The notes under the pieces: model-generated
What the model was told of the DNA's origin: nothing
Databases searched by the model: none
What the model saw: only the letters and a program-made list of their open reading frames with translations
NCBI GenBank assembly: GCA_030693515.1
Contig: JAUYAK010000018.1
Location: 1 to 64,000, forward strand
DNA: 64,000 nt
Direction of reading: 5' to 3'
DNA from: Opitutaceae bacterium
GTDB lineage: Bacteria > Verrucomicrobiota > Verrucomicrobiia > Opitutales > Opitutaceae
Program-made: the position numbers and the translations under genes
Shown here: positions 14,637 to 29,865 of the stretch, in pieces
Layout: the number at the start of each line of letters is the position of its first letter
Position numbering within the stretch: the first letter of the stretch is position 1

Positions 14637-16118
14637 TCAGTGCGACTCCGTGAAGCTCGTGATCGAGTGCCACTCGAAGACTTCCTGGAGCAGCACGCGC
14701 TCGGCCTTGGCGATGGCGCGCTCCAGGCCGGCCCACGTCTGGCTGTGCGCGATTTCCTTCCGCACCGTCTCCAGCCGGATGCTCATCTCGCGGTAGCGCG
14801 CCACGCGCCGGTGCAGGTCGTTGATCGAGATGAGCGACATGAAGGCCGCCGCCAGCACCGGCAGCATGATGGGCCCGAAGTAGAACGCCGCCGCCGCCAC
14901 GCCCGCCGGCAGCGGCCAGTGGAACGTCTCCTGCAGCGCGTAGCCCGCGGTAAAAACGATGGCGGCGACCGAGCACACCGCGAAGCCGGCCCGCAGCCGC
15001 GCGAGCAGCGGGTTCGCCTTGGCCTCCTGCCGCGCGAAATACGCGAGCTGGTCGTCGATGCGGCCGGCGAGATAGCCCTGCTTGAACGTGTCGAAATCCG
15101 GCGGCGCCTCGCGCGAGGCGCGGCGGTGCAGCACATCGAGCGAACGCCGCAGGGGCTCGAGGCCCGCCCAGTCGAAGTCCGCAAACAGCCGCGTCGCGCG
15201 CGGCAGTCCCCAGATGGCGAGCGCGGAGCGGGTGATTTCGGCGGCGAGGCGGCAGCGCGTCCATTGGTGCTGCGTATGGCGGTAGCGCACGACCATCGCG
15301 ACCACGAGGGCGCCGATCAGGCAGGCCAGCTTGCCCCAGGGCAGGGCGCTCCAGTGCCAGCCAAAGGCCAGCGACGCCGTCGCGAGCGCGGTGGCGGTTA
15401 CGTGCAGCGCGAGGGTGAGCGCGATCAGCCGGCGGAAATGCGGGGAGCTCTGCGTCGCGGCATCGTCCACCTTTTGCTGAAAGGCCGCCACCCGGTCGCG
15501 CGGCGAGGCCTCGGCCGGGGCCGTCCGGCCCGGCACCGCGTTGAGGTAGCGCAGATTCGCATCGTGCAGCCGGAGGCGGTCGAAATTCTCCCGCCGCACG
15601 ACCTTGGTCTCCGGGTTTATGATCACGAGCGGCCGGCCCATGGCGCGCGCGTAGGCGACCACATCGGCCGTGCCGCCCTTGCCGCGCGCGGGCAGGCCGT
15701 CCCAGACCGCGAGCAGCACGTCGGTGTTGTTCACGATTTCAAAGCCACCCGTGAGGTAGGCCTCCTCGCGCGAGCCGGGCTCGGTGGCGACTTCGATGCG
15801 CTCGGCCCGCGCGAGCAGCGCTTGCACCGGCCGCCACTCCTCCGGGGAAAAATCACGCTCGAAATCCACCAGCGGCAGCGGCAGCACCGCCTCCCAGCCC
15901 AGCCCCAGATCGAGCGCCGCGTGCACGAAAAGCAGGTCCGCCCCGGCCGCCGCCGACGACAGCGCGATCCACTCGCCCGGCGCCTCGCGCTGCAGTTCGC
16001 GCAACACATCGGCGATGGTGCGGGCCACGCCCGGCTCGTCCGCGAGCAGCCGGTGTCCCGTGAAACCCACGACATGAAACAGCGGCAACTGGCTGGCGGT
16101 GGCGGGAGCGGTGGACAT
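14637..16118 (-). CDS. SLOG-like nucleotide-sensor domain fused to a four-helix membrane effector (SLATT-like)
   Basis: A 493-aa protein. Residues 13-190 form a Rossmann-like SLOG-family domain: VVGFTGHRLL (16-25), ALSSAAAGADLLF (52-64), VNNTDVLLAVWDG (129-141), GKGGTADVV (146-154) and PLVIINPE. The C-terminal half has two pairs of membrane helices (about 228-275 and 375-440) separated and followed by charged helices, including a basic/acidic end region (ISINDLHRRVARYREMSIRL). This is the layout of SLOG fused to a SLATT/DUF4231-type membrane effector described for biological-conflict systems. SLOG domains bind nucleotide ligands; in Thoeris one senses an NAD-derived signal made by a TIR protein. 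The ATG at 16118 is the only start that fits the domain; upstream in-frame DNA crosses the divergent TIR gene. It lies 162 bp from the first TIR gene, on the opposite strand. Confidence 0.72.
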   Translation of the reverse strand: MSTAPATASQLPLFHVVGFTGHRLLADEPGVARTIADVLRELQREAPGEWIALSSAAAGADLLFVHAALDLGLGWEAVLPLPLVDFERDFSPEEWRPVQALLARAERIEVATEPGSREEAYLTGGFEIVNNTDVLLAVWDGLPARGKGGTADVVAYARAMGRPLVIINPETKVVRRENFDRLRLHDANLRYLNAVPGRTAPAEASPRDRVAAFQQKVDDAATQSSPHFRRLIALTLALHVTATALATASLAFGWHWSALPWGKLACLIGALVVAMVVRYRHTQHQWTRCRLAAEITRSALAIWGLPRATRLFADFDWAGLEPLRRSLDVLHRRASREAPPDFDTFKQGYLAGRIDDQLAYFARQEAKANPLLARLRAGFAVCSVAAIVFTAGYALQETFHWPLPAGVAAAAFYFGPIMLPVLAAAFMSLISINDLHRRVARYREMSIRLETVRKEIAHSQTWAGLERAIAKAERVLLQEVFEWHSITSFTESH

Positions 16119-16280: not shown

Positions 16281-19200
16281 TTGAACGATGAGCGTTCCGG
16301 TGGGGTCGGGCGCGCGGTTTTCTTGAGCTACGCGTCGCAGGACGCGGAGGCGGCGAAGCGCATTGCCGAGGCGCTGCGCGCCGCGGGCGTCGAGGTGTGG
16401 TTTGACCAGAACGAACTGGTCGGCGGCGATGCGTGGGATGCGAAGATCCGCGGGCAGATCGCGAGCTGTGCGCTGTTCGTGCCGGTGATCTCGGCGGCGA
16501 CGCAGGCGCGGCTCGAAGGGTATTTTCGGATCGAGTGGAAACTCGCCGCGCAGCGCACGCACGCCATGGCCGAGGAGAAGGCATTTTTGTTGCCGGTCGT
16601 CATCGACGCGACGCGCGATGCCGAGGCGAAGGTGCCGGGGGAGTTTAAGGCCGTGCAGTGGACGCGGCTGCCGGGCGGCGAGGGGGCGGAGAAATTTTGC
16701 GCGCGGGTGAAGCAGTTACTCGGTGGCGATGGGGTGGAACCGGGGCGCCCGCGCTCCGGAGAACGCGGCGAGGGCGCCGCGTCCCCCGTCAAACCTGCGG
16801 CGACCCGTCGCCTATGGCTTATACCAGCGGCGCTCGGACTCGCCGCCGTGCTCGCAGTCACCACCTTTCTCGCGCTCCGCCCGATGTCCGAGCCGGGCAC
16901 GGGCGGGAGCGCATCCACCGCCGCGAAATCCGCGCCGCTCACCGAGGCGCAGCAGCTCGTCGCGAAGGCGCGAAAAGTGTTCGAGGAAGGCGACCTGTAT
17001 AACCGGGAGACGTATGCGCTCACCGAGGCCTTGTTGAAGAAGGCGGAGGAACTGGATGTCGGCGAAGCCGAAGCGTGGGCGCTGCACGCGTCGGTTTCCG
17101 GATGGATCAAGGATTTTGGCTTCGACAACTCGACCGACCGCGCGCCGGCGCTGAAGATGCAGGCGGAACGTGCGATCAAGCTGGCGCCGACGTCGGTCGC
17201 GGCGCGGCTCGCGTATGCTACCGTTAACGAGGACGAAGCCGAATCCATTTTGCCCGGGCTGCTGGCTGAGCGGCCCGATGACTGGCGCGTGCTGCATGGT
17301 CTCGCGCGGTTGCGCCGGCGGCAGGAAAAGACCGACGAGGCAGTCCAACTCCTGCAACAAGCGCGCCGGCTCTCTGACGATCACCAGGCGGTAACCGGCG
17401 ACTTGCTGACGGTGCTCGTCTACGCCGGGCGCTTCGCCGAAGCGGAAGCCGTGGTGGAGGAAGTTCTGCCGCGCCGCAGTTGCGGCCGCGTGTTGGAATT
17501 CGATGTGCGCTTGAAACTGAACTGGCGGGGCGATGCGGCCGCGGCAGCCGCGGCCTTGGAGCGCTGGCCGGCGTGGCTGTTGAAGGAGGACCGTGGGGCC
17601 CATTGCGCCGCACAGGTCTGGATGTGGAACCGGCAGCCTGCGAAAGCGCTCGCCATCCTCGGCGGGTTTCCGCGCGACTACTTTCGCCACCACCGTTTCA
17701 CGGGTCCGCGCGCCGCGCTCACCGCGTGGCTGCACGAGTTGGCCGGGAACACCCAGGCGGCACGCTCGGACTGGCGGGTGGCGATTCAGGTGGTGGATCG
17801 CGAGTTGGCGGCGATGCCGGCCAGCACGCCGGCCCTGCATTGGAAAGCGTGGGCCCTGGCCCGGCTCGGCGATCGCCCGGCGGCCGAGCCGATCTGGCGT
17901 GAACTGATCGAGCGGCGAGCCGGAACGTTCCGCGCGAATGATACGACCGGCGGACTGGCCGGTCTCGCCCTGACGGTCGGCCACATCGACGAAGCGTTCG
18001 CCGAACTGGAGCGGCTGTTCACCGGCAAGCAGGCGTTTCAGGGTTTTCTGCCGACCCGCGCGACCCTGGATTTGAATCCGTGCTTCGACGGCATCCGCAC
18101 CGACCCACGATTTGTGGCGCTGCGCGCGGCTGCGCCCGCCCCTGAGGAAAAACCGGGAAAAAAAACTTCGGCGGTTCCAACTCCGGCCCCGAACGACAAA
18201 TCCCTCGTCGTCCTCCCGCTCGAAAATCTCAGCCCCGATCCGGAGGACGCGTTTTTCACCGGCGGGATGCATTTCGAGATAATCCAGACGCTGTCGCGCA
18301 TACCTGATTTGAAGGTGATCTCCCGTGATTCTGCGCTGGCGTTAAGGGAGTCCACCCTCTCGCTGGCGGAAAAGGCCCGGAAAGTCGGTGTCACCAACGT
18401 GGTCATTGGCAGCGTGCGCCGGGCCGGCGCACGCGTGGTGATCGCCCTTGAGCTCCGCCGAGCCCGCGACGAAGCGCTGCTGTGGACCAAAACCTATGAG
18501 CGGGACGCCAGCGGAGCCTATGCGATCCAAGGCGAGGTGGCGGCGGAGGTGGCGCGCGTGCTGCAGGCGCGGGACCAACGGGGCTCGTTTGCCGGCGCGC
18601 GCTATCATACGCAGAATGCGCAGGCCTACCGGCTTTTTCAAAAACTGCGCGACGCGCATCTCTACGAAAACAGCCTCACTTCCGCCGAGCGTATCGCCCA
18701 AGCGGAAAAAATCGTGGAGCTCGATGCCGAGTTCATGCCCGCGGTGACTTTGCTGTCGATGGCCCACGCCTCTAAGTCGAGCGGGACGCGCGAAGCGGCT
18801 GAACGAAAGAAACACGCCGACCTCGCTCGCCAGTGGGCGGAAAAAGCTGCGGCGTTGGTGCCGGGCGGAGCCGGGGACGGGGCGCTCGCGAATTTTTACT
18901 CTGTGACGCGCGATTATGAGCGGGCTCTCCTTTACGCCGAGAACACGGCGCGCGCCTCGCCGAACGATGCCACCTCGCACGCCTTTGTCGCCTCGGCTCT
19001 GGAGGGACTCGGTCGGAACGCCGAGGCGCTCGCTGCCTACGAACGCGCGCTCGCACTCGATCCGATGAATGTCGGGCTGCATGGCAACCGGCTGGAACTG
19101 CTGGTCGCATTGCGCCGGCCGGACGGGTTTGAAGCCGCTTGCGCGAAGTGGCGGGAGATCCAACCCCAGGTGAGCCCGACCCTCTTTTTCCCCGGCCGAT

Positions 19201-19802
19201 TTCGACTCTACGGGGAGATTCCGAAGGAGCTGGGCGGCTTGCGCGTGTATGACACCGCGCTGTGGCTTTGGCGGACGCGCCGCTTTGCCGATCTGATCTC
19301 ACTGCTCGATGCTGAACTGGCGCGAGGCGATATGGCGGTCCGTATGCGCTTCGATGTCCTTGAGAAAAAAGCCCAGGCGTTACGGAGAACAGACCGGTTG
19401 AACGACCTGCAGACAGTGGCGCAGGAGATGAACGGAATCGCCGGACAGTTATTGGACGATGACGATGCCGAATACGCCTACGACTCGTCCCGGGTGGCGA
19501 AAGCCAAGGCGTTCAACGGTGAGGTGGACGCCGCCGTTTCCACGCTACGAAGAGCCATCGCGACGACGAACTCCGCCCAGCAGATGTGGCAGGCACGCGT
19601 GCAACGGACCTACCTCGCAGAAATCCTGGCCGCCGCCGGACGGTCCAAGGAGTGCGTCGCGCTGCTCGTCGAGATTCTCGCCACCGGCAGCCCAACGCTC
19701 TCCGTGCCCTCGCTGCGACTCGACCCCACGTGGGACAACGTGCGCGAGGACCCGGCGTTCAAAGCGCTGCTCGCCGACCCCAAAAACTCCGCGCCGCTGT
19801 GA
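16281..19802 (+). CDS. TIR-TM-TPR-TolB-like-TPR protein (first of the array)
   Basis: A 1173-aa protein starting at TTG. TIR domain at 12-148: box AVFLSYASQDA, then VEVWFDQNEL, with the candidate NADase glutamate E85 in YFRIEWKLA. A palindrome-encoded linker (about 154-172) is followed by one membrane helix (178-199), a first TPR-type helical module (about 205-620) ending LDLNPCFDGIRTDPRFVAL, a TolB-like/COG5616 domain (about 640-775: KSLVVLPLENL ... VVIGSVRRAG) and a second TPR module (about 785-1160) ending in a similar WDNVREDPAFKALL tail. TIR domains are often NAD-cleaving enzymes or signal makers. The C-terminal parts look like a binding/sensing scaffold across or along the membrane. It overlaps the next gene by one base (TGATG), so translation is probably coupled. 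Confidence 0.85.
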   Translation: MNDERSGGVGRAVFLSYASQDAEAAKRIAEALRAAGVEVWFDQNELVGGDAWDAKIRGQIASCALFVPVISAATQARLEGYFRIEWKLAAQRTHAMAEEKAFLLPVVIDATRDAEAKVPGEFKAVQWTRLPGGEGAEKFCARVKQLLGGDGVEPGRPRSGERGEGAASPVKPAATRRLWLIPAALGLAAVLAVTTFLALRPMSEPGTGGSASTAAKSAPLTEAQQLVAKARKVFEEGDLYNRETYALTEALLKKAEELDVGEAEAWALHASVSGWIKDFGFDNSTDRAPALKMQAERAIKLAPTSVAARLAYATVNEDEAESILPGLLAERPDDWRVLHGLARLRRRQEKTDEAVQLLQQARRLSDDHQAVTGDLLTVLVYAGRFAEAEAVVEEVLPRRSCGRVLEFDVRLKLNWRGDAAAAAAALERWPAWLLKEDRGAHCAAQVWMWNRQPAKALAILGGFPRDYFRHHRFTGPRAALTAWLHELAGNTQAARSDWRVAIQVVDRELAAMPASTPALHWKAWALARLGDRPAAEPIWRELIERRAGTFRANDTTGGLAGLALTVGHIDEAFAELERLFTGKQAFQGFLPTRATLDLNPCFDGIRTDPRFVALRAAAPAPEEKPGKKTSAVPTPAPNDKSLVVLPLENLSPDPEDAFFTGGMHFEIIQTLSRIPDLKVISRDSALALRESTLSLAEKARKVGVTNVVIGSVRRAGARVVIALELRRARDEALLWTKTYERDASGAYAIQGEVAAEVARVLQARDQRGSFAGARYHTQNAQAYRLFQKLRDAHLYENSLTSAERIAQAEKIVELDAEFMPAVTLLSMAHASKSSGTREAAERKKHADLARQWAEKAAALVPGGAGDGALANFYSVTRDYERALLYAENTARASPNDATSHAFVASALEGLGRNAEALAAYERALALDPMNVGLHGNRLELLVALRRPDGFEAACAKWREIQPQVSPTLFFPGRFRLYGEIPKELGGLRVYDTALWLWRTRRFADLISLLDAELARGDMAVRMRFDVLEKKAQALRRTDRLNDLQTVAQEMNGIAGQLLDDDDAEYAYDSSRVAKAKAFNGEVDAAVSTLRRAIATTNSAQQMWQARVQRTYLAEILAAAGRSKECVALLVEILATGSPTLSVPSLRLDPTWDNVREDPAFKALLADPKNSAPL
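16742..16787. repeat. GC-rich palindromic element inside the TIR/TM linker
   Basis: GGGGCGCCCGCG, then CTCCGGAG, then CGCGGCGAGGGCGCC and GCGTCCCC form an imperfect palindrome. It encodes the linker EPGRPRSGERGEGAASP between the TIR domain and the membrane helix. The same protein position in the three other TIR genes also holds a palindrome of different sequence. Confidence 0.5.
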
Positions 19803-21838
19803 TGAGTTCAGCTGAAAACAAAGCCGTATTCCTATCCTACGCGTCGCAAGACGCTGCAGCGGTGTTGCGCATCTGCGAGGCGCTGCGCACCGCGGGCATC
19901 GAGGTGTGGTTCGATCAGAACGAGCTAGTGGGCGGCGATGCATGGGATGCGAAAATCCGTGGGCAAATCGCGAGTTGTGCCTTGTTCGTGCCGGTGATCT
20001 CGGCGGCGACGCAGGCGCGATTGGAGGGCTATTTTCGGATCGAGTGGAAACTCGCGGCGCAGCGCACGCACGCGATGGCGGAGGAGAAGGCGTTTGTGCT
20101 GCCCGTGGTGATCGACGACACGCGCGATGCCGAGGCGAAGGTGCCCGTGGAGTTCAAGGCCGTGCAGTGGACGCGCCTGCCGGGCGGCGAGGGCGCCGAG
20201 AAATTCTGCCAGCGGGTGAAAAAGCTGCTCGGAAGCTCGGAGATTGATGTAGGCCCGGTCGCCGACCGGGCGCCCGGCCAGCGGCCGGGCCTACAGCCAA
20301 TCCCTGTCCGCAGGAAATCTCCCTGGTCCGTCTACCCCATCATCGCTGTCGCCGCCGTCGTTGCCCATGCCTTCTGGCAGCCGTGGAAATCGAACGCGCC
20401 GCCCGCCGCGCCCGCCACTGCGTCGCCTCTCACCGCCAGCCCGTCACCGGCGGCGGCTCCCGTGGCGGACCAGAAATCCGTCGCCGTGCTGCCGTTCGTG
20501 AATGGCAACGGCGACAAGGAGAACGAATTCTTCTCAGACGGAATCAGCGAAGAGTTGATCAACGCGCTCCTAAAGATCCCGGGGCTCAAGGTGCCCGCTA
20601 GCACCTCGTCGTTTCACTTCAAAGGCAAGGACACCCCGATCGCCGAGATCGCGCGGCAGCTCAACGTCGCCCACGTGGTCGAAGGCAACGTGCGCAAGGT
20701 CGGCACACGCGTGCGCATCAACGCGAAGCTCATCAAGGTCGCGGACGGTTTTCCCGTGTGGTCGTCGGGCAACATCGATCTCGATCGCGAGTTGAAGGAC
20801 GTGCTCGCGTTGCAGGAGGAAATCGCCGGGCGAATCGCTCAGGCGTTGCAGCTCAAACTCGGCGGGGTCGCCGTCACCGCGACGGTGAATCCGGAAGCGT
20901 ATCAACACTTGCTGCAGGCACGCTTCTACAGCCGCAGCCAGGACAACGAGGGCTGGCGGAAAGCCGTGGCCGAGTGTCGCGCCGCGCTTGCCCTCGATCC
21001 GAACTACGCGGCGGCGGCGGCGGAGATGGCACGCAGCTATATTTTTCTCTGCCGCTTCGGCGGCATCCCCCTCGCCGAGGGATTTCTGGCTGCGCGCCTC
21101 GCGGCCGAGCGTGCCATTACGCTCGATCCCGAATCGCCTGAGGCGAACAACGCGCTGGCGTGGGTGCAGCGCACGGCCGATTGGGACTGGCAGCGTGCGG
21201 ACGCTTCGTTTCGGCGCGCCTACGAACGCGCACCGCGCAGCGCGGACATGATTCTCGATTACGCCGTCATCCGCAACAATCTCGGCTTCCTCAGCGAAGC
21301 CGTCGAGCTCGGCCGCCGCGCCGTCGAACTCGATCCGTTGAACGCCTACACTCACGCCTGCCAAGGGCTCTTCCTCGCGTGGAGTGGCCGCTTGGAGGAA
21401 GCATCCGCGGAGATGAAGCGCGGCATCGAACTCGCCCCGACCGCGGTCGAGTGGCCCTCCTACCAGACGCGCTTTCTCGTGATGCTCGGCCGGATCGACG
21501 AAGCGGCGGCGATGGCCGAACTCGAGCCGAGCGAAAGCTACCGGCTGTTTTCCCGCGGGCTTGTGCTGCTCGGCCGCAAGAACCGAGCCGCTGCCGATCA
21601 CGTGATTCGTGAGCTGAGCGAAAAGCACGGCGAAACCATGAACAACTACATCGCGGAGCTCTTCGCGTTCGCCGGCGAAACCGATCACGCATTCGAATGG
21701 CTGGAGCGCGCCCGTGTGCGGCGCGAGACGGCGATGGTGTGGCTTCGTGCGACGCCCGCGTTTCGTCCACTCCACCCGGATCCGCGCTGGACGGCCCTGC
21801 TGCGCAAACTGGGAATGCCCGACGGGCCGACGAGATGA
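19802..21838 (+). CDS. TIR-TM-TolB-like-TPR protein (second of the array)
   Basis: A 678-aa protein. TIR domain at 7-145, with E81 as the likely catalytic glutamate (YFRIEWKLA). The linker VGPVADRAPGQRPGLQ (150-165) is encoded by a palindrome. Membrane helix at about 172-193; TolB-like domain at about 222-350 (KSVAVLPFVNG, NEFFSDGISEELINALL, AHVVEGNVRKVG); TPR repeats at about 360-655. It lacks the first TPR module present in its larger relatives. ATG 19802 overlaps the stop of the preceding gene by 1 bp, and the stop overlaps the next TIR start by 4 bp (ATGA), indicating one operon. COG5616 TolB-like/TPR halves are more often attached to adenylate cyclases or DNA-binding domains; here the partner is TIR. 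Confidence 0.86.
   Translation: MSSAENKAVFLSYASQDAAAVLRICEALRTAGIEVWFDQNELVGGDAWDAKIRGQIASCALFVPVISAATQARLEGYFRIEWKLAAQRTHAMAEEKAFVLPVVIDDTRDAEAKVPVEFKAVQWTRLPGGEGAEKFCQRVKKLLGSSEIDVGPVADRAPGQRPGLQPIPVRRKSPWSVYPIIAVAAVVAHAFWQPWKSNAPPAAPATASPLTASPSPAAAPVADQKSVAVLPFVNGNGDKENEFFSDGISEELINALLKIPGLKVPASTSSFHFKGKDTPIAEIARQLNVAHVVEGNVRKVGTRVRINAKLIKVADGFPVWSSGNIDLDRELKDVLALQEEIAGRIAQALQLKLGGVAVTATVNPEAYQHLLQARFYSRSQDNEGWRKAVAECRAALALDPNYAAAAAEMARSYIFLCRFGGIPLAEGFLAARLAAERAITLDPESPEANNALAWVQRTADWDWQRADASFRRAYERAPRSADMILDYAVIRNNLGFLSEAVELGRRAVELDPLNAYTHACQGLFLAWSGRLEEASAEMKRGIELAPTAVEWPSYQTRFLVMLGRIDEAAAMAELEPSESYRLFSRGLVLLGRKNRAAADHVIRELSEKHGETMNNYIAELFAFAGETDHAFEWLERARVRRETAMVWLRATPAFRPLHPDPRWTALLRKLGMPDGPTR
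20249..20294. repeat. In-frame REP-like palindrome (GTAGGCCCGG family)
   Basis: Outer arms GTAGGCCCGG (20249-20258) and CCGGGCCTAC (20285-20294) are a perfect 10-bp inverted pair around CCGACCGGGCGCCCGGCC-type inner stems. The element starts exactly at codon 150 and is read in frame without a stop. Confidence 0.8.
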
Positions 21839-21943
21839 GCGCCGCAAACAAAGCCGTCTTCCTCTCCTACGCGTCCCAAGACGCGGGCGCGCCGCATCTG
21901 CGAAGTGCTGCGCGCGGCCGGAGTGGAAGTGTGGTTCGACCAG
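21835..21943 (+). pseudogene. Truncated, frameshifted TIR gene fragment
   Basis: The start MSAANKAVFLSYASQDA matches the N-terminus of the neighbouring TIR proteins. A 5-nt shortfall after the QDA codons then shifts the frame; the downstream codons in another frame continue the homology (RICEVLRAAGVEVWFDQ). Similarity stops abruptly at about 21943, in the middle of the TIR domain, where DNA unrelated to TIR genes and the ATPase gene begin. The ATG still overlaps the preceding stop (ATGA). It is most likely a dead TIR copy cut by insertion of the ATPase gene or by recombination; as read, the frame ends at 21969. Confidence 0.75.
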
Positions 21944-21961
21944 GGCGGAATCAGGGCTTGC

Positions 21962-21993
21962 TTGCATAATAGAAACAGATTTCTAATTTGCAA
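21962..21993. promoter_or_regulatory. 32-bp imperfect palindrome at the ATPase start codon
   Basis: Outer arms TTGCA / TGCAA (21962-21966, 21989-21993) and inner arms TAGAAA / TTTCTA around a 4-bp centre. The stretch is strikingly AT-rich within GC-rich DNA and ends on the base before ATG 21994. It could be an operator for a dimeric repressor, a promoter for a leaderless mRNA (CATAAT at 21965-21970 resembles a -10 box) or an insertion end. Confidence 0.5.
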
Positions 21994-23145
21994 ATGATTG
22001 CGCGTGAGATGACCGCGTTGGTGCGGGCCCGGCTGAAAGATTATCCGGCGGTGGGGCTCGTCGGGCCCCGGCAGACGGGCAAGACCACTCTGGCCCGGGA
22101 GCTTTCGGCCGTGTATTTCGATCTGGAGCAACCGGCCGAGCGCATCCGCCTCGATTTGCAGTGGGATGGTTTGATGAAGCAGAAAAAACTCGTCGTGCTC
22201 GACGAGGCGCAGGCCTGGCCCGAGGTGTTTCCCCGGCTGCGCGGGGCGATTGATGCGGAGCGGAAGCGGGTCGGCCGGTTCTTGTTGCTGGGCTCGGTGT
22301 CCCCCGCGCTGATGCGGCAGGTCTCCGAATCGCTGGCCGGGCGATTGGGACTGGTTGAGCTGGCCCCGCTGCTCAGCTCCGAGTTGCCCGACGTGCCGCT
22401 CGCTGAACGCTGGCTCCGGGGTGGATTTCCCGAGGGCGGCGTGGCCGGGGGCTCGCGCTTCCCGCAATGGCAGCTGGATTATCTCACGCTGCTGGCGCAG
22501 CGCGATCTGCCGGTCTGGGGTCTGCCCGCCAAGCCGGCGGTGACGGACCGATTGTTGCACATGACGGCGGCCGTGCATGGACAAATTTGGAATGCCAGTC
22601 AGGTGGGGCAGAGTCTCGGGCTGAGCTATCACACGGTGAACAGTTACGTGGATTTTCTTGAGGGAGCTTTTCTCCTTCGCCGGTTGCCGCCGTGGCTGCC
22701 CAATTTGAAAAAACGCCTCGTCCGCTCACCGCGCGTTTACTGGCGCGACAGCGGTCTGTTGCATGCCTTGCTCGGAGTGCGCGAGGCCGATGAACTGCTC
22801 CACCAGCCTTGGGTGGGTGCCAGCTGGGAAGGGTTCGTCATCGGGCAGGTGGTGGAAACGCTGGCGGCGCGTGGCGTCGTGGTGATGCCCCACTATTTTC
22901 GCACCGCCGATGGCTATGAGGTGGATTTGGTTTTCAAACTCGGCCGCCGCCTCTGGGCGGTGGAGGTGAAGCTGACGTCGAGCCCGGCCGAGAGGGATTT
23001 TGCGCGCTTCAACGCGGCGGCCGATTTGATTGGCGCCGACCGCCGAGTGCTGGTGGCGCAGGTGGCCGAGACGACATTTAACGGCAAAGCCGGCGTCGCC
23101 ACGTTGCCTGGCCTGCTGGAACTTCTCGCGAAGGAAATCGCATGA
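21994..23145 (+). CDS. AAA-family ATPase with DUF4143 C-terminal domain
   Basis: A 383-aa cytoplasmic ATPase of the COG1373 type. Walker A GPRQTGKTT (about 24-32) and Walker B KKLVVLDEAQ belong to the AAA_14 core. The middle has a winged-helix-like part (WNASQVGQSLGLSYHTVNSYV). DUF4143 follows with the nuclease-like strands YEVDLVFKLGRRLWAVEVK, resembling a restriction-endonuclease-fold core. Family function is unknown; such genes are sporadically distributed and behave as mobile or conflict-associated cargo. ATG 21994 was chosen over an in-frame TTG 6 bp upstream. No Shine-Dalgarno is visible because a palindrome occupies the leader. The stop overlaps the next TIR start by 4 bp (ATGA). The gene sits directly after the truncated TIR fragment, inside the array. 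Confidence 0.85.
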   Translation: MIAREMTALVRARLKDYPAVGLVGPRQTGKTTLARELSAVYFDLEQPAERIRLDLQWDGLMKQKKLVVLDEAQAWPEVFPRLRGAIDAERKRVGRFLLLGSVSPALMRQVSESLAGRLGLVELAPLLSSELPDVPLAERWLRGGFPEGGVAGGSRFPQWQLDYLTLLAQRDLPVWGLPAKPAVTDRLLHMTAAVHGQIWNASQVGQSLGLSYHTVNSYVDFLEGAFLLRRLPPWLPNLKKRLVRSPRVYWRDSGLLHALLGVREADELLHQPWVGASWEGFVIGQVVETLAARGVVVMPHYFRTADGYEVDLVFKLGRRLWAVEVKLTSSPAERDFARFNAAADLIGADRRVLVAQVAETTFNGKAGVATLPGLLELLAKEIA

Positions 23146-26100
23146 GCGGCGCCACCAACAAAGCCGTCTTCTTGAGCTACGCGTCGCAAGACGCGGAGGC
23201 GGTGCGGCGTATCGCGGAGGCGCTGCGTGCCGTGGGCGTCGAGGTGTGGTTCGACCAGAACGAACTCGTGGGTGGCGATGCGTGGGATGCGAAGATCCGC
23301 GGGCAGATCGCGAGCTGTGCGCTGTTCGTGCCGGTGATCTCGGCGGCGACGCAGGCGCGGCTTGAAGGGTATTTTCGGATCGAGTGGAAACTCGCCGCGC
23401 AGCGCACCCACGCGATGGCGGACGAGAAGGCGTTTTTGCTGCCCGTGGTGATCGACGGCACGCGCGACGCGGAGGCGAAAGTGCCAGGGGAATTCAAGGC
23501 CGTGCAGTGGACCCGGCTGCCGGGTGGCGAGACGCCGGAGAAATTCTGCGCGCGGGTGAAGCATTTGCTCGGCGAGGACGGGATCGATGTGGGCCCGGTC
23601 GCTGACCGGGCGCCCGGCCAGCGGCCAGGCCTACAACCAAGCCGCGCCACCAAACGCAGCTGGTTCGTGCCGGCGGTCATTGCCGCAGCCGTGCTCGCCA
23701 TCGCCGCCGTCGTGATCCTGCGTCCGCGGACTGGTTCCGAAGCGCGGCCACCCGCGCCCGCGGACGCCAGGCAGGTCCCGTTCTCCCCCGCGCGCCAGCT
23801 CGCGGAGAAGGCGAACGCGATGTCGCTGCAGAAATACAATTCGACGGCGGATGACTTTGCCGCCGCCGAGGGGCTGCTCAAGGAGGCGCTCGCGCTGGAT
23901 CAGAACGACGCGGAAATCTGGGCGATCGCGTCGCTGTTCAACACCGCGATCCGCACGCGCGGCTTCGACGACGCGCCGGCGCGGCGCGAGGCGGCGCGCA
24001 GCCAGGCGGAGCGGGCGCTGAAGCTGGACCCGCAGTCCATCGAGGGCCTCTTCGCCCTCGGCCGCTGGCAGCGCGACAACGATTCGGATCGCACCGTGGC
24101 GGAGAAGACGTTCCTCGCCGTGCTCGCCCGTGCGCCGGAGCACGAGGGCGCCATCGGCAACCTCGGCACGATGTATGGCCGGCAGGATCGGGTCGAGGAG
24201 GCGCTCGCGATGTTCGAGCGCGCGGCCCGCACCCCAAGCACGCTCGCTCTCGCGCGTTACAGCCAATACCTCGTCTACTTCAACCACGGGCGGATGGAGG
24301 AAGCCGAGCGTGCCGTGCGCGCCTCAATCGCGGCCGAGTCTTCGGCGAATTCCGTGTGCGGGCTCGCGATGGTGCTGCTGACGGCGAAGGGCGATGCCGC
24401 CGCCGCCGGGCGCGCGCTGGCCGACGTGCCGGCGGCGAACCGCAACGAGCATCGGGCGGTGTGGATGACGGCCTTTGCTCACCTCGCGGCGCGCGAGCCC
24501 GAAGCTGCGCTCACGGCCCTGCGCCGGCTCTCGGCCGACTTTGTGCAGGACAACTGGTTCATCGGCCCGACGGCATATTGGACCGGGCGGGCGCACGCCC
24601 AGGCGGGCCGGGCGGAAGCGGCGCGCATCGCGTTCGAGTCGGGCGTGGCCGTGATGGATGCGAAGCTGAAAGCGACGCCGAGCGATTTTGCGCTGCACGT
24701 CGCGCGGGGCGAGCTGCTCGCGTGGCTCGGCCGAACCGACGAAGCCCTGCGCGCCGCGCGCACCGCGACGGAGCTGATGAACCCCCGCGAGGCGACCCTG
24801 TGGTTCGTCTCACCCGCGCGGATTTACGCGGCATTGGGCCGCGCGGACGAGGCGCTGCCCCTTTTGGAAAAACTCTCCGCCCGCGATTCGCGCGCCGTGC
24901 AATGGCCGCTCACACCCGCACTGCTGCGAATCGATCCCTTGTGGGACAAGCTGCGCGGCGACGCGCGGTTTCAGGCTCTGATCGTAGAAGCGAAGCCGGT
25001 GGAAAAACAGTCAGCGATCACTCCGACCGCTCCAAAGATCGCCGACAAATCCGTCGCCGTGCTGGCCTTCGCAAATCTCTCCGACGACAAGGGCAACGAG
25101 TATTTCTCCGACGGCATCAGCGAGGAACTGCTCAACGTGCTGGCGAAAGTGCCGGGACTGAAAGTTTCGGCGCGGACCTCGGCGTTTCACTTCAAGGGCA
25201 AGGACACGCCCATTCCCGAAATCGCGCAGCAGCTCGGCGTGGCCTACGTCGTCGAGGGCAGCGTGCGCAAACAGGGCGACAAGGTCCGCATCACCGCGCA
25301 GCTCATCAAAGCGGCGGACGGTTTCCACGTGTGGAGCGACACCTTCACGCGCGACTTGAAGGACATCTTCGCCGTGCAGGATGAGATCGCGGGGCTGATC
25401 GCGAAGAATCTCTCGCTGAAACTCGGGGCGAGTTCGTCTGGGGCGAAGGCCGCGATCAACCCCGAAGCCTTCGAGCTCTATGTGCAGGCCCGGCAGGCGT
25501 GGAATCTCCGCACGACCGAGGGCTTCGACCGGGCGGAGGAATTGCTGAACCGGGCCTTGGCGCTCGAACCGGATTTTGCCCGCGCCCACGCCGCGCTGAG
25601 CGATGTCTGGGGCACGCGCGGCTCGGAGATCGGCCAGTTCGGTCGGCGCGAGTCGCCCCTGATGCGCCGGATCATCGCGGCCGCCGAGCGGGCGGTGGCG
25701 CTCGATCCGAATTCCGGCGAAGCCCATGCCTCGCTCGGCAACGCCTACCTGAACTCGTGGAAACTGGCCGAGGCCACGCGGACCTTGCGTCACGCCGTAG
25801 CGCTCAATCCCAATTATGCCACGGGCCGCCAGATGCTGGGCCGGGCGCTCCTGGCGCAGGGCTACTTTGCAGAGGCCGCGGCGGAAATGGCCCGGGCGAC
25901 GGAGTTGGACCCGCTTTCCCACCGCATCATCGACAACTACGCCATTGCCCTGTTCGCAATGGGACGCCCGACCGAGGCTTTGGCCGCGACCGAGCGCGCG
26001 CTGGCGCTATGGCCGGATTCCGTCCAAGCCGGGAGATGGCGGGCCCGGTGCCTCTCAAAATTGGGACGGCACGAGGAAGCCGTGGCCCAAGCCCGGCGGG

Positions 26101-26441
26101 TCAAAGAGGACGACGTCCCAACCTCAGTTTATCTCGTGGAAGTGTTCGTCGCGGCGGGGCTGAAGTCCGAGGCCGAGGAAATACTGGCCAAGCTGGACCG
26201 GAATTTTGCGGGCAGGAGATTCGTTGGCCTGTTGGAACTTGGCCGCTATGAAGAGGCGCTGGCAGCGATGAACCCCGCCGAGATGAACCCCCAAAGCTTT
26301 TATCAGACGAACCTCGACCCCGTCCGCGACGATCCGCGCTTCAAGCAGGTGCTCGCGACGCTCGGCCTGACCGACACCGACGCCCGAGTCCGCGCCTGGC
26401 ACCAGGCGCATCCGCCGGAAAAACCGGCGGCGAAGAAATGA
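23142..26441 (+). CDS. TIR-TM-TPR-TolB-like-TPR protein (third intact copy)
   Basis: A 1099-aa protein with the same plan as the first array member. TIR at 7-145 with E81; palindrome-encoded linker VGPVADRAPGQRPGLQ (150-165, same position and residues as in the second copy); membrane helix at about 173-195; first TPR module at about 215-620; TolB-like domain at about 634-765 (KSVAVLAFANL, NEYFSDGISEELLNVL, AYVVEGSVRKQG); second TPR module at about 770-1065, ending LDPVRDDPRFKQVL. Its TIR DNA differs from the first member by about one base over a 120-bp stretch, whereas the TPR parts have diverged widely. Translation is probably coupled to the ATPase by the ATGA overlap. Confidence 0.86.
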   Translation: MSGATNKAVFLSYASQDAEAVRRIAEALRAVGVEVWFDQNELVGGDAWDAKIRGQIASCALFVPVISAATQARLEGYFRIEWKLAAQRTHAMADEKAFLLPVVIDGTRDAEAKVPGEFKAVQWTRLPGGETPEKFCARVKHLLGEDGIDVGPVADRAPGQRPGLQPSRATKRSWFVPAVIAAAVLAIAAVVILRPRTGSEARPPAPADARQVPFSPARQLAEKANAMSLQKYNSTADDFAAAEGLLKEALALDQNDAEIWAIASLFNTAIRTRGFDDAPARREAARSQAERALKLDPQSIEGLFALGRWQRDNDSDRTVAEKTFLAVLARAPEHEGAIGNLGTMYGRQDRVEEALAMFERAARTPSTLALARYSQYLVYFNHGRMEEAERAVRASIAAESSANSVCGLAMVLLTAKGDAAAAGRALADVPAANRNEHRAVWMTAFAHLAAREPEAALTALRRLSADFVQDNWFIGPTAYWTGRAHAQAGRAEAARIAFESGVAVMDAKLKATPSDFALHVARGELLAWLGRTDEALRAARTATELMNPREATLWFVSPARIYAALGRADEALPLLEKLSARDSRAVQWPLTPALLRIDPLWDKLRGDARFQALIVEAKPVEKQSAITPTAPKIADKSVAVLAFANLSDDKGNEYFSDGISEELLNVLAKVPGLKVSARTSAFHFKGKDTPIPEIAQQLGVAYVVEGSVRKQGDKVRITAQLIKAADGFHVWSDTFTRDLKDIFAVQDEIAGLIAKNLSLKLGASSSGAKAAINPEAFELYVQARQAWNLRTTEGFDRAEELLNRALALEPDFARAHAALSDVWGTRGSEIGQFGRRESPLMRRIIAAAERAVALDPNSGEAHASLGNAYLNSWKLAEATRTLRHAVALNPNYATGRQMLGRALLAQGYFAEAAAEMARATELDPLSHRIIDNYAIALFAMGRPTEALAATERALALWPDSVQAGRWRARCLSKLGRHEEAVAQARRVKEDDVPTSVYLVEVFVAAGLKSEAEEILAKLDRNFAGRRFVGLLELGRYEEALAAMNPAEMNPQSFYQTNLDPVRDDPRFKQVLATLGLTDTDARVRAWHQAHPPEKPAAKK
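23589..23634. repeat. In-frame REP-like palindrome, second copy of the GTAGGCCCGG family
   Basis: GTGGGCCCGG (23589-23598) pairs with CCAGGCCTAC (23625-23634) with slight decay compared with the 20249 copy. It also begins at codon 150 of its gene, so it was present before these two genes separated or was spread between them by gene conversion. Confidence 0.75.
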
Positions 26442-26468
26442 TTTCAACCAAGACGACAAACCTTTCGA

Positions 26469-26556
26469 CACAGAGTTCACGGAGAGGCCAAGCCGAGCGC
26501 ACAGAGATTTCCTCCGTGGTCTCCGTGAGTCTCCGTGAGTCTCCGTGTTCTCTGTG
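26469..26556. repeat. Intergenic inverted repeat with CTCCGTGAGT direct repeats
   Basis: CACAGAGTTCACGGAG (26469-26484) is nearly the reverse complement of CTCCGTGTTCTCTGTG (26541-26556). The loop holds CTCCGTGGT and two copies of CTCCGTGAGT. It fills most of the 136-bp gap between the third and fourth intact TIR genes, and a long RNA hairpin here would separate their expression. It looks like a dispersed repeat family. Confidence 0.7.
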
Positions 26557-26577
26557 ACTCAACTCCAGTTTCTGAGC

Positions 26578-29500
26578 ATGAGTGATCCCACCAAAGCCGT
26601 CTTCCTCAGCTACGCGTCACAGGACGCTGAGGCGGCGAAGCGCATTGCTGAGGCGCTGCGCGCCGCAAGCGTGGAGGTGTGGTTCGACGTAGAAGGCGGC
26701 TTGGAGACCGGCGACGAGTGGGATCAGAAAATCCGGCGTCAGATCAAGGAGTGCGTGCTGTTCATCGCGGTGATTTCTCAAAACACGCAGGCGCGGCACG
26801 AAGGGTATTTTCGGATCGAGTGGGAACTTGCGGCACAGCGCGCGATGGGATTCGCGAGCGGCGTGGCGTTTATTTTGCCCGTGGTGATTGACGACACCCG
26901 CGAACCGGAGGCGCTCGTGCCGGATCGTTTCCGCGCGGTGCAGTGGACGCGGCTGCCAGGCGGCGTGATGGCGCCGGAGGTGGTGGCGCGGTTCGTGAAG
27001 CTGTGGTCGCACCGGGCGGGAGTGGTGAAGGCTGACCGGGCGATTGAAGTAGGGCGGGTCTCTGCCCCGCCCATGAGTCAGGAGGGGACAAGGGCGGGTC
27101 AGAGACCCGCCCTACCACGGAGGCGCGGGCTCAGCGGAGGCGTCGTGGTTTTGTTCGCGGCCGCACTCGCGGTGGGCGGGTATTTTTGGCTGAGGCGGCC
27201 GGCGGAGCCGGCGACGAATGCGGGCGCGGGGACGCGCCCGCCCACCGCAGCCACTGCGGTCTGGCCGCGCGATCCGGAACTGAAGCGGGCGATGGCGTTG
27301 GTGAACGGCCTCGAGGCCAACCCCGAGGACTTCACGCTGGCGGAGGACATCGCGAAAAAGGTGCTCGATAAGAATTCCACCGCACCAGAAGCGGTGACCG
27401 TGATGGCCCGGGTGCAGGTGGCGTTTCTCTTTCGGGGCTTCGACCTGAGCGACGAACGATTCGCGGCCGCTCGCCGCTACGCCGAGCGCGCCGTGCAACT
27501 CGGGCCCGAAGATCCCGAGGCCGTCGCGGCGCTGGGCATCTGCTTTCTCATGCGCGCCGCCGATTATCCGCGCGCGCGCGAGTTGCTGGAGCGGGCGGTC
27601 GCGCTCAGGCCCGGCGAACCTCTTTTCCACCGCTTCCGCGACCGGGCCATCTTTGGCGACTTGAAGGTGCCGACCGCCGAGGCTCTGGCGGCATCGGAAA
27701 AAACCGCTGCGCTTTTCCCCGGCGACGCGCTGGCGCACTACGAACTTTCGCGCCACTACCGCGACGCGGGCCGCATCGCCGACATGGAGCGTGAGCTGGA
27801 CCGCACCCTCGCGATCACGCCGCTGACCAACGCCATTGTTTGGAAAGCGCGCATCGCCCTGCTCGTGCGGGCTGACGCCGCCGAGATGAAAGCGCTCCTC
27901 GACCAGGTGCCCTCGCGCACCCGCTCGGGCGAACGGGTCGTCTTCAGCCGTTGGATCCATGGGATGGTGACGGGGCAGGCCGAGGACGGGCTCACGGCCC
28001 TCGGCAGCCTCACCACCAAATGGATTGACGACTTCGAATACACCGGTCCGACCGCGCTGCTCACGGCGCAGTTGCTGGAACTGCAGGGCAAACCGGCCAT
28101 GGCCCGCGCGCAGCACGCAGTGGCGCTCGCCGAGGCGCAGACGCGGAAGGCGCGCAACCCGGCCGACTACTACGCGCGCGTGGCCGAGGTGTGGGCGTTG
28201 CACGGGCTGAAGCGCGATGCGGAAGCGCGGGCGCTCCACCCGGCCACGCTCGAGGGGCTGCGTCGGCCCTATCGCTACGGGCTGATGGGTGATTGGTGGT
28301 TCAACGCGATTCCGGCCAGCCTGCTGCTCAGCGAACGCGCCACTGCCCTCGACCTTATCCGCGAAGCCGTGACGGCATCGGCGGAGGGCGTTGTCTCGCG
28401 CCGCGTGATGCTCAGCGACGGCGACGTGGCGCGCCGGCTGGCGGGCGCGGTGGGCGGCGAGAGTTACGCCGCCGAAGCGCGCGCGGCGCTGCGGCTGCGT
28501 TTCAAACAGGATCCGCGCATGGCGCCGTGGCGCGACGATCCGGAAATCGTCGCGCTGCTGGCCGAGCCTGCGGACGGTGCGGACAAAAAAACTGTCGCCG
28601 CACCGCCCGCCCTGAGCTCGCCGAGTGGGTTGAGTGAAGGCGCGCAGCTCGCGGCGCGGGCGCTGGCGTTGTTCGCCAAGACGAGTTTTACCCGCGACGA
28701 TCTCGGGCCGGCGGAGGACTTCGCGCGCCGCGCGACCGACAAAGAGCCCGATAACGCCGGCGCGTGGGGCGTGCGCGCGGGCGTGCAGGCGGCGTGGATT
28801 TATCGCAACTGGGATGTGAGCGAGAAACGCCGGCAGGAAACGCAGACGCTCGCCAACCGGGCGCTCGCCCTCGACCCCAACGAGCCCGAGGCGCTCCTCT
28901 CGCTCAGCCATGTGCTGCGGAAGCAGGGGGCGCTCGATCAGGCTGAGGTCCATCTGCGGCGTTCCATCGCGGCCAACCCGCATCACGTCCGCTTGGTGCG
29001 GGCGCTGGGCTTCACGCTGATCAGCGCGGGTCGCGCGGCCGAGGCCCGCGCGGTGTTGCAGGAACTCGCCCAACGCTTCCCGCGCGAACCCATGGTGCGC
29101 TACGAATTGTCGATGAGCTACGCGAACTATGGGGCGGGCGGGGCCAATCCGGAAGACCTCGCCGCGGCGCTGGAGCAGCTCGACACCGCCATAGCCCTCC
29201 AGCCCTTTGCGTCGGCGCTGCTGGCCAAGGCGGCGCTGCTGGGCGGTTGGCGGGGAGATTTGTCCGCGATGCGGTCCACGCTGGATCAGTTGGACAAGTT
29301 CCCCCTCGGCGAGCGCTCCGAAGATCGGGCGGTCTGCCTGGCCATGTGGGCGGGGTTGCTCGAGCGCCGGCCCGACCGCGTCGCGGCGACCGCGACGTTG
29401 ACGGCGCGAACTTATTTCGAGGACGGCATCTTGCCGCTGCGGCCCAAGGCCTGGTCGCTCGCGCTGGCCTACCGGATCGCCGGCAAGGAAAATCTGGCCC

Positions 29501-29865
29501 GCCGCGAATGGCAGGCGGCGGAGACGGTGCTGCGCCAGCGGCTGAAAGACGAACCCGCCAACGAGACCTACCAAGTTGAGCTGGCGATCACGCTCGCGTG
29601 GCTGGAGCAACGCGAGGAAGCCACGCGGTTGATCGGCGCGGTCGAGCCGATGTGGCGGGAGGAATTGGTGCGAGGACGCCCATTGCTGCTGGCGCGCTAC
29701 TACGCGGCGGCCGGTGACGCGGTGAAGACGGCGGCCTATCTGTCGCTGGCGATCGACCACACGGTCTTCTTTGCACGCAAAGCGATCGCGCTCGATCCGT
29801 GGTGGGACAACGTGCGCGGCGCGCCGGAGTTCGCGGCGGCACTGAAGGCGCCGGCGGCGAAATGA
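26578..29865 (+). CDS. TIR-TM protein with two tandem TPR modules (fourth intact copy)
   Basis: A 1095-aa protein. TIR at 6-145 is the most diverged of the four (VEVWFDVEGGLETGDEWD in place of WFDQNELVGGDAWD), but keeps E81 in YFRIEWELA. The linker at 158-180 is encoded by a 67-bp palindrome; membrane helix at about 185-207. It has no TolB-like domain. Instead the C-terminal part is two copies of one TPR module (about 215-665 and 680-1090), each opening with an ALA.F....A.....A(R)(R/K) pattern and closing with WRDDPEIVALL or WDNVRGAPEFAAAL. The start at 26578 was preferred over GTG 26545, which lies in the upstream inverted repeat. It probably has its own promoter or depends on read-through across that repeat. 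Confidence 0.84.
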   Translation: MSDPTKAVFLSYASQDAEAAKRIAEALRAASVEVWFDVEGGLETGDEWDQKIRRQIKECVLFIAVISQNTQARHEGYFRIEWELAAQRAMGFASGVAFILPVVIDDTREPEALVPDRFRAVQWTRLPGGVMAPEVVARFVKLWSHRAGVVKADRAIEVGRVSAPPMSQEGTRAGQRPALPRRRGLSGGVVVLFAAALAVGGYFWLRRPAEPATNAGAGTRPPTAATAVWPRDPELKRAMALVNGLEANPEDFTLAEDIAKKVLDKNSTAPEAVTVMARVQVAFLFRGFDLSDERFAAARRYAERAVQLGPEDPEAVAALGICFLMRAADYPRARELLERAVALRPGEPLFHRFRDRAIFGDLKVPTAEALAASEKTAALFPGDALAHYELSRHYRDAGRIADMERELDRTLAITPLTNAIVWKARIALLVRADAAEMKALLDQVPSRTRSGERVVFSRWIHGMVTGQAEDGLTALGSLTTKWIDDFEYTGPTALLTAQLLELQGKPAMARAQHAVALAEAQTRKARNPADYYARVAEVWALHGLKRDAEARALHPATLEGLRRPYRYGLMGDWWFNAIPASLLLSERATALDLIREAVTASAEGVVSRRVMLSDGDVARRLAGAVGGESYAAEARAALRLRFKQDPRMAPWRDDPEIVALLAEPADGADKKTVAAPPALSSPSGLSEGAQLAARALALFAKTSFTRDDLGPAEDFARRATDKEPDNAGAWGVRAGVQAAWIYRNWDVSEKRRQETQTLANRALALDPNEPEALLSLSHVLRKQGALDQAEVHLRRSIAANPHHVRLVRALGFTLISAGRAAEARAVLQELAQRFPREPMVRYELSMSYANYGAGGANPEDLAAALEQLDTAIALQPFASALLAKAALLGGWRGDLSAMRSTLDQLDKFPLGERSEDRAVCLAMWAGLLERRPDRVAATATLTARTYFEDGILPLRPKAWSLALAYRIAGKENLARREWQAAETVLRQRLKDEPANETYQVELAITLAWLEQREEATRLIGAVEPMWREELVRGRPLLLARYYAAAGDAVKTAAYLSLAIDHTVFFARKAIALDPWWDNVRGAPEFAAALKAPAAK
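27049..27115. repeat. In-frame REP-like palindrome (GTAGGGCGGGTCTCTG family)
   Basis: Perfect 16-bp arms GTAGGGCGGGTCTCTG (27049-27064) and CAGAGACCCGCCCTAC (27100-27115). It starts exactly at codon 158 and is read in frame. Sequence and length differ from the palindromes at 20249 and 23589, yet it occupies the equivalent place between TIR and membrane helix. Confidence 0.85.

Follow-up and report, generated by a model that had tools for sequence, protein, structure and literature searches.

In-Frame Palindromic Repeats of Many Families Occupy the Linker Between TIR Domain and Membrane Helix in an Opitutaceae Gene Family

Introduction

Can one place in a protein be made, again and again, out of short mobile DNA? 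This question is raised by a stretch of 64,000 nucleotides from an Opitutaceae bacterium (contig JAUYAK010000018.1 of assembly GCA_030693515.1, positions 1 to 64,000; hereafter the window, whose coordinates are used throughout), in which four consecutive genes each encode a TIR domain (the head), a short linker, a single membrane helix and a TPR-rich tail, and in which palindromic DNA lies in the codons of the linker. The elements of genes 2, 3 and 4 are head-to-head dimers of repetitive extragenic palindromes (REPs) tagged with GTAG or GTGG, and thus belong to the world of GTAG REPs, REP doublets forming hairpins (REPINs) and REP-associated tyrosine transposases (RAYTs). A survey of relatives shows that the linker between TIR domain and helix holds in-frame elements from 13 signature families, at a density above that of intergenic DNA.

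Palindromes in the Linkers of the Window Genes

The four genes and their linker elements are as follows.

16281 to 19802, plus strand: gene 1, TIR domain, linker, membrane helix and TPR tail (TIR_2, E 4e-21, and TPR matches; helix about 90 nt past the head end)
16742 to 16787, plus strand: decayed palindromic element in gene 1, family F8 by signature (DNA z -1.1, RNA z -1.7; one loose F8 signature match; its peptide recurs in linkers of relatives)
19802 to 21838, plus strand: gene 2, TIR domain, linker, membrane helix and TPR tail (TIR_2, E 4.5e-20; N-terminus modelled)
20249 to 20294, plus strand: REP dimer of family F9, forming codons 150-165 in gene 2 (two hairpins; DNA z -4.2, RNA z -5.8; 5 family matches in the genome)
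23142 to 26441, plus strand: gene 3, TIR domain, linker, membrane helix and TPR tail (TIR_2, E 2.9e-20)
23589 to 23634, plus strand: REP dimer of family F9 with 5' tag GTGG (DNA z -2.2, RNA z -4.9; its homology to 20249-20294 extends through the head as well)
26545 to 29865, plus strand: gene 4, TIR domain, linker, membrane helix and TPR tail, head from about 26578 (TIR_2, E 1.5e-19)
27049 to 27115, plus strand: REP dimer of family F10, the most abundant of the families searched in the window genome (DNA z -8.1, RNA z -7.4; 155 units)

A sequence-only reading of the window had placed stop-free palindromes between the TIR and helix codons of genes 2, 3 and 4, and direct reading and folding confirm this: the linkers, measured from the end of the TIR head to the membrane helix, span about 20230-20324, 23570-23658 and 27006-27127, and none of the four window elements contains an in-frame stop. 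The GTAGG..CCTAC ends then ascribed to the palindromes are present, as GTAG/CTAC, at 20249-20294 and 27049-27115, but the element at 23589-23634 starts with GTGGG. The third palindrome is indeed of another family (F10 rather than F9), with perfect outer arms of 16 bp. As single-stranded DNA, 20249-20294 folds into two adjacent hairpins and the other two into one long hairpin each, and as RNA each of the three forms one long hairpin. The palindrome proposed for gene 1 has fared less well; it matches the F8 signature, but it folds barely better than shuffles and is at best a decayed element.

In genes 2 and 3, DNA homology spans both head and repeat (86% over 489 nt) before the sequences diverge, and these two elements are therefore not two independent landings. 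A structural model of the N-terminal 253 residues encoded by gene 2, made with 49 family sequences, gives a confident TIR fold, after which residues 146-158 and 160-165 have a predicted local distance difference test score (pLDDT) below 50; residues 179-192 then form a helix. Most of the REP codons fall inside the stretches of low pLDDT, and the linker is thus modelled as disordered. The window genome (G000, 6.65 Mb) holds one further TIR head match, at the edge of contig C16, which bears an F3-type dimer, so that an intact element is present with four of its five heads and a decayed one in gene 1, and four families are represented overall.

Class of Element and Genomic Copies

The features that define a REP, namely a tag beside a hairpin, two hairpins head to head and many dispersed copies, are all found for F10, and also for F9 except that its copies are rare. 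In whole-genome searches allowing at most three mismatches, the F10 family at 27049 has 155 units in the window genome and is far from unique, whereas the F9 family at 20249 and 23589 has only 5 matches at four places, one of these places being both halves of one dimer; the reversed pattern gives 0 matches in either case. Such structures exceed chance in this genome, with 66 inverted repeats of score at least 12 in 464 kb against 7 in one shuffled copy, and 184 GTAG-plus-hairpin units in 400 kb against 72, 80 and 83 in Markov copies. The family of gene 1, F8, carries GGAG instead of a GTAG or GTGG tag. A search of Rfam gave no match within the window.

Seven loci with Y1-type transposases were found in the window genome, and at three of them (L003, L006 and L007) the flanks carry REPs that belong to other families present in this genome. 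L003 and L006 score 76.1 and 72.0 bits against the NCBIfam model of REP-associated transposases, NF047646, for which the cut-off is 80. In locus L005 (G000:C44:24181-27444), an alanyl-tRNA synthetase gene encloses in frame, at about locus positions 1396-1990, a complete RAYT-type transposase and the hairpins on its flanks; the single open frame scores 759 bits against the alaS model and 78.6 bits against the transposase model (cut-off 80). This transposase has no other match near it in 27 genomes of the genus, the next best being 42% identical.

Survey of TIR Linkers Across Relatives

The TIR head was matched in 105 of 252 genomes of the family, and among relatives in named genomes (79 loci) nearly all come from metagenome-assembled genomes called Opitutaceae, Opitutus, Oleiharenicola, Candidatus Didemnitutus or Verrucomicrobia, one being titled Gammaproteobacteria. 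The survey set consists of 131 distinct genes from 31 Opitutaceae-type genomes, picked regardless of repeats and mostly from genomes rich in the TIR family (G080 and G060 give 19 each). Loci L102-L181, sequence duplicates, frames with stops and genes with less than 700 nt past the head were left out, and loci fetched for a repeat were not counted. The linker window is the 130 nt after the head, and a strong inverted repeat is one with a score of at least 12.

Such a repeat is present in the linker of 45 of the 131 genes, in 6 at 150-299 nt after the head, just past the helix, and in 4 elsewhere in about 1 kb, while ten trials with shuffled linkers gave 0-4 each. Signatures of 13 repeat families match 79/131 linkers, as compared with 0/131 head windows and 1/131 tail windows; because the signatures were derived from such linkers, these control windows weigh more than the count itself. 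A signature, a strong repeat or both are present in 82/131 linkers. At least one linker family occurs in 25 of the 31 genomes and two or more in 10, with 48 family-genome combinations in all. Translated REP-like elements of many families thus lie in this linker, and the earlier suggestion that a tolerant linker is a repeated landing site is borne out to that extent. Counting independent insertions by clustering the elements proved unusable, the number of clusters being 1 at identity 0.6, 8 at 0.7 and 28 at 0.8, and families and family-genome combinations were used instead.

All six families searched through whole genomes (F1, F3, F4, F8, F9 and F10) are repeated genome-wide. Dispersed copies number 68, 40 and 11 for F4 in G123, G080 and G060, 234 and 16 for F1 in G123 and G060, 281 for F8 in G080, and 52, 70 and 54 for F3 in G145, G149 and G123. 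Sampled stretches had hinted that F1, F3 and F4 might be private to linkers, which these searches ruled out.

Two other observations belong to the survey. In L065, L068, L069 and L098, a second site just past the membrane helix holds another family (GTGGCTGAGGCGTCCCGCCTCAG), and genes in these loci bear both. Protein kinases were tried as a general linker control (30 loci) and rejected: no catalytic motif was found in 15, and among the other 15, 14 have a helix and 0/14 a strong repeat, a result that says little because most of them have a conserved short stretch there rather than a free linker.

Density, Spacer and Codon Phase

The TIR linker is denser in repeats than DNA that is free to accept insertions. 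Strong inverted repeats, which at this score include some that are not REPs, occur at 2.6 per kb in TIR linkers, 0.93 per kb in intergenic DNA of the window genome and 0.04 per kb in its other coding sequence. An intergenic sample from four relatives gave 44 repeats of score at least 13 in about 73 kb; at that score 40/131 linkers have one. Part of the excess is inheritance, because F1 dimers in TIR linkers share one 11-nt spacer type (15/15), while intergenic F1 spacers vary from 8 to 11 nt and look unrelated. Placement of F1 in G123 was followed in 50 sampled copies (57 rows, of which 7 from other genomes were excluded by hand): 33 are intergenic, 11 are in other genes and 6 are in TIR linkers.

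Within TIR linkers each family keeps to one codon phase almost without exception. The tag is in phase 0 for F1 (10/10), F3 (7/7), F7 (9/9), F2 (4/4), F13 (4/4) and F11 (5/6), and in phase 1 for F4 (7/7), in a tally that excludes F5, F8 and F12; in other genes, by comparison, F1 is in phase 0 in only 3/11. Common descent may be the cause of this fixed phase; bland peptides or a particular insertion context may also be preferred. No target shared by the flanks of F1 copies was found by eye.

As a separate observation, many intergenic F1 dimers of G123 with an 8-nt spacer (for example L156, L162 and L169) are nested in a further palindrome, with flanks like TTGCAGGCGATTTC.

Decay, Probable Replacement and Linker Length

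The occupant of the linker can differ between genes that are otherwise alike. Two genes of one genome, L064:505 and L064:15237, have heads and tails that are 0.80 identical but F1 and F8 linkers, respectively, and their flanking homology picks up again beside the element. The tails of gene 4, L013 and L068:11044 are related (0.64-0.68), and the linkers of these genes differ in family, F10 in the first against F11- and F1-type peptides in the others. More generally, 13 gene pairs have a tail identity of at least 0.6, and 0 of these reach a linker identity of 0.6, so that linkers are poorly conserved as protein, though in the closest pair, L020 and L039 (0.59), both linkers are of family F8.

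Decay is also apparent, since the strong palindrome is gone in 37 of the 79 signature linkers while the frames remain open. Where the helix could be located (85/103 genes), median linker length is 32 residues with a strong repeat and 31 without. Because these lengths are nearly equal, the elements constitute the linker to a greater degree than they lengthen it.

In-Frame Elements in Other Genes and Neighboring Features

Genes of other kinds also carry in-frame elements. RecD2 of two genomes (L089, 1774-4122; L099, 13838-16210) has in-frame palindromes from different families, at residues 292-311 in one and 295-316 in the other; in both, the element lies between the match to HHH_RecD2 and that to AAA, at almost the same position. 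PurL has an element at residues 636-656, between domain matches (592 and 675), and altronate dehydratase one at residues 557-582, past the last domain match. Sensor histidine kinases of two genomes (L110 and L150), alike by eye, have in-frame F4 and F1 at different nearby sites.

Around the cluster itself, one more head, truncated, is present:

21839 to 21943, plus strand: truncated TIR head, then an unrelated ATPase gene (76-79% DNA identity to the other heads)

This head breaks off after about 35 codons and is followed by an AAA_14/DUF4143 ATPase gene, so that 21838-23145 looks like the product of an insertion or deletion. Just upstream of the cluster, the minus strand at 14637-16118 holds a gene with weak matches to SLATT (a 2TM effector). 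In PADLOC, the best stretches of the four TIR proteins lie within residues 1-118, and no known defence protein was matched beyond the TIR domain.

Proposed Origin of the Linker Elements

Overall, with a probability of about 0.7, we favor a history of REP insertion, survival of in-frame linkers that were tolerated, decay, replacement, and copying together with duplicated TIR heads. REP dimers, thought to be moved by RAYT transposases, would land in many places of genomes rich in repeat families, and in-frame insertions would survive in the TIR linker if, as we infer, nearly every hydrophilic sequence of about 30 residues without a stop suffices there. The palindrome would later decay to ordinary coding sequence, a subsequent element might overwrite it, and head duplication and gene conversion among paralogues would copy occupied linkers, which would explain some of the surplus relative to intergenic DNA. 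On this view the repeats provide prefabricated flexible linkers, and their structure, whether as DNA or as RNA, is probably not required.

Several observations weigh against this history. A linker density above that of intergenic DNA is unexpected from tolerance alone, and the near-equal linker length differs from what simple insertion predicts; no clean empty site was found among the linkers compared. Because they share a single spacer type, the F1 linker copies are not independent landings. Neither a signature nor a strong repeat is present in 49 of the 131 linkers, and none of the 8 genes of G215 has a linker element; a repeat is therefore not required in the linker. Furthermore, F8 and F12 lack the GTAG/GTGG tag, no RAYT flanked by F9 or F10 was found among the seven Y1 loci, and the other seven of the 13 families, covered in sampled stretches only, gave 0 to 3 copies each.

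The same facts might be explained by descent only, a few ancient insertions having been copied with heads as the family expanded, and with no special hot spot. The presence of F1 with its one spacer type in TIR linkers of two genera is in keeping with this, as are heads 80-95% identical in many pairs and a linker identity that correlates, weakly, with that of the head (r 0.26-0.27) and less with that of the tail (r 0.08-0.10). However, 13 signature families at one site in 48 family-genome combinations, and different families in genes with similar head and tail, make it unlikely that descent is the whole explanation. Similarly unlikely is a reading in which a TIR receptor-like family that reshuffles fast makes use of mobile REP dimers as modules for linkers and joints. 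Selection would then retain them before and after the helix to a greater extent than neutral tolerance explains, both for flexible spacing and as seams for head/tail exchange.

The sequence-only reading had also suggested that the repeats may seed recombination. REPs would then act as short shared homology, or as sites cut by the transposase, in moving TIR heads onto other sensor tails, and the element would be the seam. In a comparison of 85 genes (3570 pairs), head identity is almost unrelated to tail identity: the 16 pairs with heads of at least 0.9 have a median tail identity of 0.325 and only 2/16 reach 0.5, although in other pairs head and tail are both near 0.8. Among the 75 pairs with a linker identity of at least 0.6, only 3 have a tail identity of at least 0.5, and genes 2 and 3 likewise part after a shared head and repeat. 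This discord between heads and tails, judged from sequence comparison, points to domain shuffling, with tails near 0.3 at background level. Heads and tails thus look shuffled, but a role of the repeats in this is rather doubtful, as head homology breaks off near the linker whether or not a pair has repeats there, that between L068:2 and L068:5638 extends past the helix, and a large cluster of genes in G215 has no repeats. No repeat composed of halves from two families came to light, none having been sought. In breakpoint mapping, a joint made by a repeat and the end of a conserved domain look alike.

Directed insertion, in which the linker DNA or its transcription draws insertions made by RAYTs that always have one orientation and phase, would explain why repeats are nearly three times as dense in linkers as in intergenic DNA of the window genome and why each family has one codon phase, that of F1 being constant in TIR genes and not in others. 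The flanks of F1 copies nevertheless appear to have no target in common, and common descent or avoidance of stops and awkward residues also yields a fixed phase; we regard this explanation as improbable. Selection for the hairpin itself, for instance as a translation pause between TIR domain and membrane helix or to regulate mRNA decay, would suit the very stable RNA hairpins of three of the four window genes, but is very improbable given the open linkers that have lost the palindrome (37/79), those without any trace of it (49/131) and the lack of an Rfam match in the window.

Significance and Comparison with Known Systems

Landing, decay and copying of REP dimers at this linker would make it an apparent natural case of short mobile DNA repeatedly made into protein at a single defined spot, where intact elements coexist with decayed and different ones. 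Two questions thereby become testable: how loosely protein linkers are constrained, and whether REPs, usually termed extragenic, aid domain shuffling in receptor-like gene families. It also calls for caution in annotation, as recurrent short Opitutaceae peptides (VARVSRPV, GRPRPGERGEGAASP, VGRDLRIPPS and others) are repeat-encoded and no sign of shared function.

Rickettsia palindromic elements lie inside open reading frames and are translated, and the window elements, which the earlier reading likened to them, share with them their palindromic form, their place within open reading frames and their translation. The class is nevertheless that of GTAG REPs, with RAYT transposases in the genome, and membership in the Rickettsia family was dropped on the class description. 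In the available part of the published account of intragenic REPs, RPE-4 and RPE-6 are placed in the CGTC class (PMC3733652).

The intragenic GTAG REP as a kind of element is already known, above all from Opitutus terrae, and flexible linkers have been named as a possible tolerant place, with different REPs at about the same recB site in two Xanthomonas species (PMC3733652, as far as its available text goes). In the literature searched on intragenic REPs and on TIR-TPR families, part of it available only in portions, the present gene family was not found, although single TIR cases may sit in the supplementary gene list of PMC3733652. What has not been found in print, and is new as far as that literature goes, is a single linker within one gene family that many repeat families occupy recurrently and more densely than they do intergenic DNA.

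The elements resemble REPINs and their RAYTs in that inverted REP doublets are the moving unit and lie near Y1-type transposase genes, but the REPINs described in the available part of PMC3116915 are from extragenic space, whereas those described here are coding sequence. The closest likeness is to the intragenic REPs that the accessible portion of PMC3733652 describes, with the same GTAG tag, the same head-to-head dimers and the same in-frame position in genes of the same bacterial family. Unlike those REPs, which are spread over unrelated genes, many of them of DNA repair, the elements described here, of many families, share one linker of one expanded gene family, where they decay and are probably replaced.

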